From the NCBI GenBank assembly GCA_020724485.1, contig DYGW01000002.1, positions 1 through 49,651 on the forward strand: DNA of 49,651 nt, in the 5' to 3' direction. Below the pieces are notes generated by a model that saw only the letters and a program-made list of their open reading frames with translations, did no database searches and was not told the origin of the DNA. Every line of letters begins with the position of its first letter. Positions within the stretch are counted from its first letter, which is position 1. Positions 43,291 through 46,452 of this stretch are shown here, piece by piece. Source of the DNA: Thermoflexus sp. Its GTDB lineage: Bacteria; Chloroflexota; Anaerolineae; Aggregatilineales; Aggregatilineaceae. A program made the translations under genes and the position numbers.

Positions 43291-43325
43291 GCCAAGAAGA
43301 CCTTTCGACGACAAAACCCCGACCG

Positions 43326-43440: not shown

Positions 43441-43630
43441 GGGGTCCACGAACGACCTGTTAGGGGGCTGGGCACTTGGGCGCTGGGATTGCCCCCCATT
43501 CCCCAACCCCTTCCCCCACGCTGCGCGCAGGGAAGGGGAGCCGGCCCGCCGCTTTTCTCCCTTCCCCCCTCGTGGGGGAAGGGCTGGGGATGGGGGGGAC
43601 AAACACGTTCACGACTTGTTCGTGGACCCC
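43441..43630. repeat. Nested palindrome (large), copy 3, about 190 bp
   Basis: Terminal inverted repeats GGGGTCCACGAAC (43441-43453) and GTTCGTGGACCCC (43618-43630) are perfect. Inside are C-rich and G-rich complementary runs (CCCCCCATTCCCC region with GGGGATGGGGGG region). It lies between the LacI promoter and the thrS-locus promoter. Architecture matches the element at 37440, with different terminal arms. Confidence 0.75.
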
Positions 43631-43645
43631 TTTGCACCATAAGCC

Positions 43646-43674
43646 TTGACAGCGACCACGCCCTCCAGTATCCT
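43646..43674 (+). promoter_or_regulatory. Sigma70-like promoter of the T-box / thrS locus
   Basis: TTGACA (43646-43651), 17-base spacer, TATCCT (43669-43674). The expected start near 43681 places the T-box stem I at the 5' end of the RNA, as required for that element. Confidence 0.75.
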
Positions 43675-43680
43675 GTACAA

Positions 43681-43973
43681 CAGCAAAGCGCATACCCTCC
43701 AACACGTTGACCGGGACGAGTACTGGCTCATCCCCGGTTCCAGGGAGAGCGGATCGCCGACTGCAAGCCCGCTCATCCGGCGAGCCAGGAAAACCCCCCG
43801 TGAGCGCGTCGCCTAACGGCACTCTGTGCACCCAGTAAGCGACGCCGGTTGGCCCCGTTAGCAGCCGCCATGAGAACAGCGCGCCGCCCTTCGCTGCGCC
43901 CTGTCGAACTTGGGTGGAACCGCGTGGATGCTTGTGACCCTCGCCCCAACTTCGGGCGGGGGTCTTCATTTTT
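43681..43973 (+). ncRNA. T-box leader with antiterminator and terminator
   Basis: The T-box core TGGGTGGAACCGCG is at 43911-43924. The antiterminator has helix TTGGG/CCCAA (43910-43914 with 43945-43949), the 7-base TGGAACC bulge (43915-43921) and GCG/CGC (43922-43924 with 43942-43944). It excludes the terminator stem 43936-43946 with 43954-43964, which is followed by TTCATTTTT. Stem I shows AGTA (43719-43722), helix CTGGCTC/GAGCCAG (43723-43729 with 43782-43788), then GAA at 43789-43791. The next triplets are AAC or, one base on, ACC (43793-43795, Thr), so the specifier is not settled. CTAACGG/CCGTTAG (43813-43819 with 43855-43861) forms another stem. Uncharged tRNA should favour read-through. 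Confidence 0.9.
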
Positions 43974-44038
43974 GGGGCGTTATCGGTGTAGTATGGTGGT
44001 ATGAGTTTGTGCCGGATGAGACAGTAAGGATCACAGCC

Positions 44039-44386
44039 GTGTTCGTCAAACGTGTGTGGATTGAGCCTGAGCCGAGGATCGGATTCGACCCGCTCAGCGA
44101 CAGCGCGGATGTCCTGGTGGAGATGGAAGACAACAAGCTGTGGCAAGCCCACTTCGTCACCCTGCAGCATCTCCAGCAGGAAATGCAGCTCAGCCTGGAT
44201 GTCGCCCGCCAGCACAACGGCGCGCTGGCCCCGACGCAATTCCTGGCCTTGGAGACGCCTCACGTCATCGTCGAGAAGCTGACGCCGGAGATCATCGAAG
44301 ACGTGGTGGACAACCTGATGGCGCTTGGCGTATTCGAGAGCGTCTTCGTTGAGTTCGCCAGCGAGGCCGGGCCGCTGCCCGACTGA
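44039..44386 (+). CDS. Unknown 115-residue protein between T-box and thrS
   Basis: I start it at GTG 44039 (FVKRVWIEPEPRIGFDPLSDSADVLVEM), with AAGGAT about eight bases upstream; an open frame further 5' covers the T-box and is not coding. The protein is acidic and soluble, with an N-terminal beta-like segment and a helical C-terminal half (TPEIIEDVVDNLMALGVFESVFVEFASE). No cysteines, no signal peptide, no motif I recognise. It is the first gene after the T-box terminator, and the threonine-rich leader peptide starts 13 bases after its stop. An accessory role in threonine or tRNA metabolism is a guess from position only. Confidence 0.7.
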   Translation: MFVKRVWIEPEPRIGFDPLSDSADVLVEMEDNKLWQAHFVTLQHLQQEMQLSLDVARQHNGALAPTQFLALETPHVIVEKLTPEIIEDVVDNLMALGVFESVFVEFASEAGPLPD

Positions 44387-44398
44387 AAGGAGCGCCCT

Positions 44399-44455
44399 AT
44401 GACCGATCTCCCTACTGACACCAGAACGCGCACAACTGCCGGGCGGCTCGGGTAG
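44399..44455 (+). CDS. Threonine-rich leader peptide upstream of thrS
   Basis: An 18-codon ORF, MTDLPTDTRTRTTAGRLG, with six threonine codons (ACC, ACT, ACC, ACG, ACA, ACT) among 17 residues after Met. AAAGGAG (44386-44392) lies six bases before the ATG, one of the best ribosome-binding sites in the window. It is followed seven bases later by a 17-bp stem-loop and, 200 bases on, by thrS. This is the layout of amino-acid attenuation leaders: ribosomes slow at Thr codons when charged tRNA-Thr is scarce and change downstream RNA folding. The four different Thr codon types would sense all tRNA-Thr isoacceptors. Confidence 0.8.
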   Translation: MTDLPTDTRTRTTAGRLG

Positions 44456-44461
44456 GGACCT

Positions 44462-44520
44462 TCTGCGCTGATCCCTGCCGGGCGCGCCGCACCGACGCCG
44501 GCAGCAGGGGTCAGCGCAGA
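44462..44520 (+). promoter_or_regulatory. Candidate attenuator stem-loop before thrS
   Basis: A 17-bp stem (44462-44478 with 44504-44520, one G-U pair) starts with TCTGCGCTGA / TCAGCGCAGA. CCGGCAG (44498-44504) could instead pair with CTGCCGG at 44436-44442 inside the leader peptide, and GGTAGGGA (44451-44458) with TCCCTGCC (44472-44479). Ribosome position on the peptide could therefore select between folds. TGCCGGGCG occurs at 44437, 44476 and 44571. No U-tract follows, so the output may be Rho-dependent or translational. Confidence 0.65.
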
Positions 44521-44652
44521 GCATCCCTGCTCGTCCCCACGTGCCTCATCATCTCAGATGTGCCTAGTGCTGCCGGGCGCGTCGTCCTAGCGGTGACTCG
44601 CGCGCCCGTCCGCAGCAGCGACGCAAGCCAAGAGGAGAAGACCGACAAGCTC

Positions 44653-46452
44653 ATGGAACGCTACCAAGACAGCAAGCTCTACCGCATCCGCCATTCGACG
44701 GCGCACGTCATGGCCCAGGCCGTGCTGGAGAAATTCCCCCAGGCGAAGATCGCCATCGGCCCGCCCATCGAAGACGGCTTCTACTACGACTTCGACCTGC
44801 CGCGCCCGCTGACGGACGAGGACCTGGCCGAGATCGAGGCGCGGATGCGCCAGATCATCCGTGAGGGGTACGACTTCGTCCGCAAGGAGGTCAGCGCCGC
44901 TGCCGCCCGCGAGCTATTCCACGACCAGCCGTACAAGATCGAGCTGATTGACGGGCTGGAGCGCGGCGGCGTGGACGAGTACGGTGAGAAGACCGACGAA
45001 GCGGTCGTGATCAGCACGTACACGCAGGACACGTTCGAGGACCTGTGCCGAGGGCCGCATGTCGCCAACACGCGCGAGATCAACCCGGACGCGATCAGCA
45101 TCACCTTCAAAGCGCCCGCCGGTGCCTATTGGCGCGGTGACGAGAAGCGCGAGATGCTCACCCGCATCTACGGCACGGCCTGGGAGACCGCGGAGCAGCT
45201 TGAGGAATACCTGGCGCTGCTCGAAGAAGCTAAGAAGCGCGATCACCGCGTGCTCGGCCAGCAGCTTGGCCTGTTCACCTTCAACCAACTGGTGGGCAAG
45301 GGTCTGCCGCTGTGGAAGCCCAACGGCGCGATCCTGCGCGACCTGCTGGAGCGCTTCCTGCGCGACGTGCAGATCGAGCGCGGCTACGAGCCGGTCATCA
45401 CGCCGCATATCGCGCGCGTGGCGCTCTACGAGAAGAGCGGGCACTACCCGTACTACAAGGACAGCCAGTACTCGCCCTTCGAGGTGGAGGGCGACCTGTT
45501 CATGCTCAAGCCGATGAACTGCCCGCACCACATTCACGTCTTCAAGGACGATCTGCACTCGTACCGCGATCTGCCGGTGCGCATGGCCGAGTTCGGCACG
45601 GTCTACCGCTACGAGAAGTCGGGCGAGCTGCACGGCCTGACGCGCGTGCGCGGCTTCACCCAGGACGACGCCCACATCTTCTGCACGCCGGAGCAGCTTG
45701 AAGACGAGTTCCTGGGCGTGGTAGACCTGGTGGAGTTCATCTTCCGCAGCCTGGGACTGACCGACTACCGGGCGCGCGTGGGCGTCCGCGACCCGCAGAG
45801 CGACAAATACGTGGGCAGCGACGCAGTCTGGGAGCAAGCGACCCAAGCGATCATCGCGGCGGCGACCAAGAAGGGTCTCAACTTCACGGTGGAAGAGGGC
45901 GAGGCGGCCTTCTACGGCCCCAAGCTGGACTTCATCGTCCGCGACGCGCTCAAGCGCGAATGGCAGATCAGCACGGTGCAGGTGGACTACAACCTGCCGG
46001 CGCGCTTCGAGTTGGAATACGTCGGCGAGGACAACGAGCGCCACCAGCCGATCATGATTCACCGCGCGCTGTACGGCAGCATGGAGCGCTTCGTCGCCGT
46101 GCTGATCGAGCACTACGCGGGCGCGTTCCCGGCGTGGCTGGCCCCGGTGCAGGTCGCGCTGATCCCGGTGGCCGACCGGCACATCGCCTACGCGCAGGAC
46201 GTGGCGAAGATTCTGCACGGGAGGGGACTGCGCGTGCAGGTGGACGACTCCAACGGGCGCGTGGGCGGCAAGATTCGCGCGGCGACGCAGCAGAAGATCC
46301 CCTGGATGCTGGTCGTCGGCGACCGCGACGCGGCGTCGAGCACAGTCAGCGTGCGGTTGCGCTCCGGCGAGGACCTGGGCGCGCAGCCGGTACTGGCCTT
46401 CACCGACCTGGCGACGCGCCTCGTGGAGAGCAAGGCGCTGACGCTGGCGTAA
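44653..46452 (+). CDS. thrS: Threonyl-tRNA synthetase
   Basis: A 599-residue class II synthetase that charges tRNA-Thr. It begins directly with the editing domain (RIRHSTAHVMAQAVLEKFPQAKIAIGPPIEDGFYYDFD; DLCRGPHVANT) and has no N-terminal TGS domain, unlike the 642-residue E. coli enzyme. Catalytic motifs are present: motif 1 around GKGLPLWKPNGAILRDLLERF, zinc-ligand KPMNCPHHIHVF, motif 2 RYEKSGELHGLTRVRGFTQDD and motif 3 PIMIHRALYGSMERFVAVLIEH. The C-terminal anticodon-binding domain is complete (PVADRHIAYAQDVAKIL). AGGAG at 44633-44637 lies 15 bases before the ATG, rather far. An intrinsic terminator follows. Confidence 0.96.
   Translation: MERYQDSKLYRIRHSTAHVMAQAVLEKFPQAKIAIGPPIEDGFYYDFDLPRPLTDEDLAEIEARMRQIIREGYDFVRKEVSAAAARELFHDQPYKIELIDGLERGGVDEYGEKTDEAVVISTYTQDTFEDLCRGPHVANTREINPDAISITFKAPAGAYWRGDEKREMLTRIYGTAWETAEQLEEYLALLEEAKKRDHRVLGQQLGLFTFNQLVGKGLPLWKPNGAILRDLLERFLRDVQIERGYEPVITPHIARVALYEKSGHYPYYKDSQYSPFEVEGDLFMLKPMNCPHHIHVFKDDLHSYRDLPVRMAEFGTVYRYEKSGELHGLTRVRGFTQDDAHIFCTPEQLEDEFLGVVDLVEFIFRSLGLTDYRARVGVRDPQSDKYVGSDAVWEQATQAIIAAATKKGLNFTVEEGEAAFYGPKLDFIVRDALKREWQISTVQVDYNLPARFELEYVGEDNERHQPIMIHRALYGSMERFVAVLIEHYAGAFPAWLAPVQVALIPVADRHIAYAQDVAKILHGRGLRVQVDDSNGRVGGKIRAATQQKIPWMLVVGDRDAASSTVSVRLRSGEDLGAQPVLAFTDLATRLVESKALTLA

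Follow-up and report, generated by a model that had tools for sequence, protein, structure and literature searches.

Most leader-peptide attenuators on record come from Proteobacteria and Actinobacteria, and most T-boxes from Bacillota. Both kinds of element meet in front of rtpA (yczA, anti-TRAP) of Bacillus subtilis, where the ribosome that finishes the leader itself blocks the rtpA Shine-Dalgarno (SD) sequence. At this locus, transcription depends on a Trp T-box and translation on RtpLP, a leader with Trp codons (PMC2311275). Within the Bacillota, thrS is reported as the only synthetase gene with tandem T-boxes (PMC12452182). Here, we analyzed a window of 49,651 nucleotides from a member of the Chloroflexota (Thermoflexus sp., contig DYGW01000002.1) that contains thrS. 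Judging from this sequence and its relatives, the thrS operon likely carries two sensors of tRNA-Thr charging in series, i.e., a T-box and, behind it, a switch built on a leader of Thr codons. The coordinates of all features are given in Table 1.

Table 1 Features around thrS, with positions in the window.
Feature	Position	Strand	Basis
Promoter-like site TTGACA-17-TATCCT (sigma-70-like)	43646..43674	+	motif scan
T-box leader (RF00230), specifier ACC (Thr) at 43793-43795, antiterminator motif TGGAACCGCG near 43915	43698..43951	+	covariance model match
Intrinsic terminator of the T-box, with T-run (hairpin 43936-43964)	43936..43974	+	terminator scan
Gene A, 115 aa, no assigned family, kept between T-box and thrS	44039..44386	+	ORF, loci comparison
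SD of the leader ORF (AAAGGAG)	44386..44392	+	read from sequence
Thr-rich leader ORF, 18 codons, MTDLPTDTRTRTTAGRLG and stop	44399..44455	+	sequence, loci comparison
Segment 0 (CTGCCGGG), possible small hairpin with segment 1	44436..44443	+	read from sequence
Segment 1 (GGGTAGGGA), includes the leader stop codon	44450..44458	+	pairing comparison
Segment b (TTCTGCGCTG), lower part of the long hairpin	44461..44470	+	pairing comparison
Segment 2 (TCCCTGCC), partner of 1 or 3	44472..44479	+	pairing comparison
Segment 3 (GGCAGCAGGG), partner of 2 or 4	44500..44509	+	pairing comparison
Segment b' (TCAGCGCAGA), partner of b	44511..44520	+	pairing comparison
Segment 4 (TCCCTGCTC), partner of 3 or 1; where relatives have gene B, also of its SD	44524..44532	+	pairing comparison
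thrS, threonyl-tRNA synthetase (tRNA-synt_2b, HGTP_anticodon, tRNA_SAD)	44653..46452	+	domain matches

The promoter-like site is the only one between positions 43300 and 44700 (one found, 0.2 expected), and the transcript probably starts there, upstream of the T-box. The T-box matches RF00230 over its full length (1-219) with 75.8 bits and an E-value of 2.9e-16; the gathering score of 93 is not reached in the window and is exceeded by the orthologues at loci L025 and L056. Its specifier loop reads GAAA-ACC, a Thr codon that matches the downstream thrS, and the TGGNACCGCG motif is present, followed by the intrinsic terminator, which is the only terminator-like site in the region scanned. A GAAA-ACC T-box also precedes thrS in most of the relatives in which the pattern was found, and 12 of the 15 leader-bearing loci tested gave a T-box match. 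We consider it very likely that the T-box controls thrS in the window.

The gene A product returned no Pfam match, and its AlphaFold2 model (mean pLDDT of 88.8) no PDB fold match at E ≤ 0.001. Gene A is kept in front of thrS across the order, and this constant linkage suggests a role in Thr-tRNA metabolism. Six other T-boxes were found in the same genome (L001-L005 and L007), with, as judged by eye, trpE, leuS, serS, a methyltransferase gene and then valS, pheS, and an acetyltransferase gene behind them; no leader rich in the respective amino acid was seen behind these six. Just 5' of the promoter, a large G+C-rich inverted repeat spans positions 43484-43604 (CCCCATTCCCCAACCCCTTCCCCC ... GGGGGAAGGGCTGGGGATGGGGG), and a similar stretch occurs in L021, upstream of the leader of that locus. 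This repeat is probably a dispersed palindromic element, and we therefore regard Rfam miRNA matches as chance.

The leader ORF lies 435 nt downstream of the T-box terminator. The initial annotation had described at this place a strong SD, an 18-codon ORF with six Thr codons and a 17-bp stem-loop whose strands can pair alternatively with the end of the leader, and all of these were recovered. Behind the AAAGGAG sequence, the ORF opens with ATG at 44399, closes with TAG at 44453-44455 and encodes the peptide MTDLPTDTRTRTTAGRLG, with Thr at codons 2, 6, 8, 10, 12 and 13 (ACC, ACT, ACC, ACG, ACA and ACT, in this order). Folding of the stretch places a long hairpin at 44461-44520, 3' of the ORF, and the end of the leader (GGGTAGGGA, 44450-44458) can pair with either of two pyrimidine strands, TCCCTGCC at 44472-44479 or TCCCTGCTC at 44524-44532. 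When the 266-nt gap that separates gene A from thrS was shuffled by mononucleotides, 2 of 2000 copies held any short ORF with at least six Thr and at least 30% Thr, the binomial P for the Thr content of the ORF is 4.6e-5, and the leader and hairpin stretch folds only moderately better than its shuffles (z of -2.4). No Rfam leader family, e.g. the Thr operon leader, was matched at the gathering score in this stretch, where the weak matches (E up to 5) belong to unrelated miRNA and sRNA families. The strong evidence for the putative leader switch is comparative and does not come from the window alone.

For this comparison, we employed the thrS upstream regions of 60 related genomes and the surroundings of gene A at 63 named loci, all from MAGs filed as Anaerolineae or Chloroflexi and two of them as Aggregatilineales. 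At 20 thrS loci of the families f1, f4 and f7, a Thr-rich ORF is found, generally with an SD and right behind gene A; examples of leader peptides from relatives are MTDPTGSTTGRPW, MTEPPTRTITNGTTGRHW, MTDPSTDTTVSTDATASTDGTVGVTARRPG, MTEDETFTITPGPR, MTDDDTSATITLSPR, MTDPDTGETGTQTLTRLGV and MTEPDTDGTGTGTPLLTRQGA. A covariance model (R1) built from 14 f1/f4 loci was then searched in 154 genomes of the order, and its matches at E ≤ 0.001 fell on thrS loci only, at one place per genome; the second match per genome is this palindrome again, read on the opposite strand. A dispersed repeat or mobile hairpin was rejected because R1 matches one place per genome, always at thrS. Outside its training set, R1 found the genome G028 of family f6 (E of 6e-8), which has the leader MTDDTTGTTTGRRGR, ending in a stop, plus all four helices. 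Over about 1.4 kb of upstream sequence at this locus, no T-box was found, and the two sensors may therefore be separable. Directly 5' of the intact thrS of G028, thrS pieces occur in different frames (L141; G028:C25:314625-316396), which we take for a decaying tandem duplicate or an assembly artefact. Two genomes of the same genus as the window, G002 and G003, as well as G010, keep the T-box and gene A without leader and hairpin. No comparable ORF was seen at gene A loci of lineages without a T-box (e.g. L080-L094). Thus, the check proposed with the initial annotation, i.e., a search of relatives for conserved Thr-rich short ORFs and covarying stems, was positive in f1, f4, f6 and f7; the conservation it expected extends over these four families and fails in some close relatives, two of them congeneric.

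Thr makes up 109 of the 362 leader residues (30%) at the 20 loci, with Gly as the next commonest at 43, against 4.2% in a background formed by the thrS and gene A sequences of these loci. The choice of codons is also skewed. ACC and ACT, the codons read by the GGU anticodon of the tRNA that the T-box specifier would read, account for 84 of the 109 leader Thr codons versus 178 of 529 in that background (odds ratio of 6.6, with P values that take the loci as independent while the genomes are related). The bias persists with an odds ratio of 8.1 in a control count that leaves out the last two Thr codons of each leader, which RNA pairing could fix. The argument from Thr codons rests on three or four families agreeing. 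Between the leaders of L008 and L009, Thr positions shift and the Thr count stays. The peptides of f7 and f1 have little in common beyond their richness in Thr and the distance from the last Thr codon to the stop, and a C-terminal GR motif recurs among the f1 peptides. This distance is exactly 5 codons in 16 of the 21 listed loci (f1, f4 and f7) and 5-7 codons in all but two of the 21, the window having 6. The leading edge of a ribosome lies about 12-13 nt from the first base of the A site. From these dimensions, a ribosome stalled at the last Thr codon would end at about the stop codon and leave most of segment 1 free, and one at the stop codon would cover it.

The RNA segments of f1 and f4 follow each other in the order 1 (with the stop codon), b, 2, loop, 3, b' and 4. 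As segments 1 and 3 are purine-rich and segments 2 and 4 pyrimidine-rich, two mutually exclusive arrangements result, namely 2:3 (with b:b' and 1:4) and 1:2 together with 3:4. Helices b:b', 2:3 and 1:4 together have 97% of their cells paired versus 41-49% in slid versions, with compensatory changes in 11 of 22 pairs, and helices 1:2 and 3:4 are paired to 90% versus 39-54%. Segments pair better with partners from their own species than across species for 1:2, 2:3 and 3:4, and do not do so for 1:3, 2:4 and 1:4. Within clades this test is weak (p of 0.12, 0.06 and 0.36), so part of the signal lies between clades. Family f7 uses different segments, with one helix formed by S3 and S1, which holds the stop codon, and another by S2 and S4; these helices cross each other and covary, and in four species their self pairing is the best of all 24 permutations. 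This suggests that the peptide sensor was kept in at least four families while the RNA output was rebuilt, the RNA architecture of f7 being a different one. Equilibrium folding favours 2:3 over 1:2 plus 3:4 by 2-25 kcal/mol at all loci tested, and 2:3 also dominates equilibrium models of RNA masked by the ribosome. The switch must therefore be kinetic or ribosome-driven.

Further features of the hairpin were noticed alongside. At L057, segments b and 2 occur twice on its 5' side, and the switch is rearranged. A motif resembling GCCGCAUC is retained in the apical loop (44480-44499 in the window) of f1 and f6, and the leader keeps GGG CGG codons able to pair with this loop (GCGGC with GCCGC). 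A pseudoknot between the two is possible and is not explained by the four-segment scheme.

Turning to the output, no intrinsic terminator was found at the leader and switch, where no U-run stands behind the hairpins, and a classical terminator attenuator was rejected for want of a U-run after the switch. Six f1 loci (L015-L019 and L039) hold a second small gene, gene B, between switch and thrS. At all six, segment 4 together with the adjoining 3' bases is complementary to the SD of gene B and the sequence just 5' of it, with pairing energies of -18 to -25 kcal/mol (shuffle p of 0.01-0.06 in five loci, 0.38 in L018); in G028, the SD so matched by segment 4 is that of the next ORF (-25.4 kcal/mol, p of 0.03). 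With constrained folding, the SD paired in this way was less accessible in the stop state than in the stalled one in three cases out of five. The gene B product (~70 aa) has no Pfam family and shows the motif EWANVG.CGGMFRP and a DDWQPH.RCC C-terminus; in L016, gene B lies at -303 to -81 from thrS. Coverage of the thrS SD by segment 4 was tested in loci without gene B and no such pairing was found; in the window, its complementarity to the thrS SD is not unusual (p of 0.81), and the accessibility of this SD hardly differs between the states (0.64 vs 0.57). The f1/f4 loci without gene B have 136-268 untranslated nt from leader stop to thrS. In the 60 nt after b', C exceeds G by at least 7 in 12 of 14 loci, a C-richness within the top 16% of gene A and thrS windows of the same loci. 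This C-rich, G-poor stretch after the hairpin is compatible with Rho.

The initial annotation had thrS controlled by ribosome stalling at Thr codons. Its sensor is well supported by comparison, since the Thr-rich ORF is conserved with covarying stems in f1, f4, f6 and f7, and the ORF and refolding RNA very probably sense ribosomes that stall for lack of threonine. Stalling would not be the sole control of thrS: a T-box with a Thr specifier and gene A precede the leader on the same transcript, so the leader is the second element and stalling would be a second layer of control. The switch has no intrinsic terminator. We propose that, by homology to other T-boxes, the first stage would let RNA polymerase past the terminator when tRNA-Thr(GGU) is uncharged. 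In the second stage, for which the sensor draws on the comparative evidence and the output is conjectural, a ribosome would translate the 18-codon leader behind gene A. When charged tRNA-Thr is scarce, it would stall some 5-6 codons ahead of the stop, at a Thr codon, and its front would reach segment 1 or fall slightly short of it. Segment 1 could then pair with segment 2 and leave segment 3 free to pair with segment 4. When threonine is plentiful, the ribosome would reach the stop codon inside segment 1 and cover it, the stronger 2:3 hairpin would form and segment 4 would be released. Released segment 4 would lower expression downstream and, where relatives have gene B, would do so by binding the SD of that gene. 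For the window species, initiation of thrS translation or Rho acting on the untranslated C-rich stretch is a possible output.

On balance, we lean towards a dual tRNA-Thr checkpoint as the reading of these sequences, in which the T-box is joined by a terminator-free Thr-leader switch that would gate thrS, and in some species the intervening gene, by SD sequestration or Rho. A Rho-dependent attenuator with the same sensor is possible but rather doubtful: full translation of the leader would let 2:3 form and leave the C-rich stretch open to Rho, so that transcription ends before thrS, and in the stalled state 3:4 and the trailing RNA would deny Rho its site. The missing U-run, the long untranslated stretch up to thrS at f1/f4 loci without gene B and the excess of C over G after b' all speak for it. 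However, segment 4 must be pyrimidine-rich merely to pair with segment 3, and SD pairing already appears as an output in the loci with gene B.

Two further explanations do without stalling. If the T-box were the sole regulator, the Thr-rich ORF would encode a small functional peptide and the hairpin, lying between gene A and thrS, would serve in processing or in mRNA stability. The T-box is indeed present, several relatives manage without a leader and the GR motif recurs in f1, yet we consider this unlikely, as Thr positions move with their number kept, the choice of Thr codons departs strongly from genes of the same locus, the leader stop codon lies inside a covarying alternative helix, and the f7 and f1 peptides are alike in little but Thr content and the spacing of the last Thr to the stop. 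It is highly improbable that the hairpin is an operator bound by excess ThrRS, with translation blocked as at E. coli thrS. Its position upstream of thrS and the loop sequence kept in f1 and f6 would fit; by eye, however, none of the Thr anticodon triplets (GGU, CGU or UGU) is seen in the loop motif that is conserved, no Rfam regulatory family was matched at the hairpin, and the Thr codons would be left unexplained.

In the literature searched, no paper joined ribosome-mediated attenuation with Chloroflexi, and one paper covering T-boxes, Chloroflexi and thrS gives only ile and trp T-boxes for Dehalococcoides. Neither an earlier described case in Chloroflexota, in searches that covered few subscription journals, nor an earlier report of a T-box paired with a leader-peptide sensor for thrS was found. 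Within the reach of these searches, neither thrS nor the Chloroflexota had a leader-peptide attenuator on record, and this one would be the first for both. Leader and T-box would read the same tRNA on one transcript, in a phylum with little work on gene control, which bears on why thrS tends toward double control (compare the tandem T-boxes in Bacillota) and offers a stalling switch that lacks an intrinsic terminator and can be put to the test. It also suggests that similar leaders inside operons, behind other genes, have been missed by searches that look only at 5' ends.

Compared with the E. coli attenuators thrL, trpL, hisL and pheM (before pheST), the locus shares a small ORF that has a good SD and is enriched for the codons of the amino acid to be sensed, a stop codon inside segment 1 and the mutually exclusive 1:2/3:4 and 2:3 pairings. 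It differs from them in having no terminator hairpin with a U-run and no Rfam leader match, and in lying inside an operon, behind a T-box. We therefore do not class the switch as a classical attenuator, whose defining terminator is absent, though the sensing half would work alike. With the E. coli thrS operator it has in common a structured RNA before thrS; that operator works by tRNA mimicry and ThrRS binding, without Thr codons, and no resemblance to it was found. The tandem T-boxes of Bacillota thrS likewise provide double control by tRNA-Thr charging, whereas the second sensor here is a translated leader. The arrangement resembles B. subtilis rtpA, where a T-box is also followed by a leader peptide with codons of the same amino acid. 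It departs from rtpA in the gene that separates the T-box from the leader, in the four-segment RNA switch through which the leader would act, placed well 5' of the next start codon, and in its target, a gene for a synthetase in Chloroflexota.
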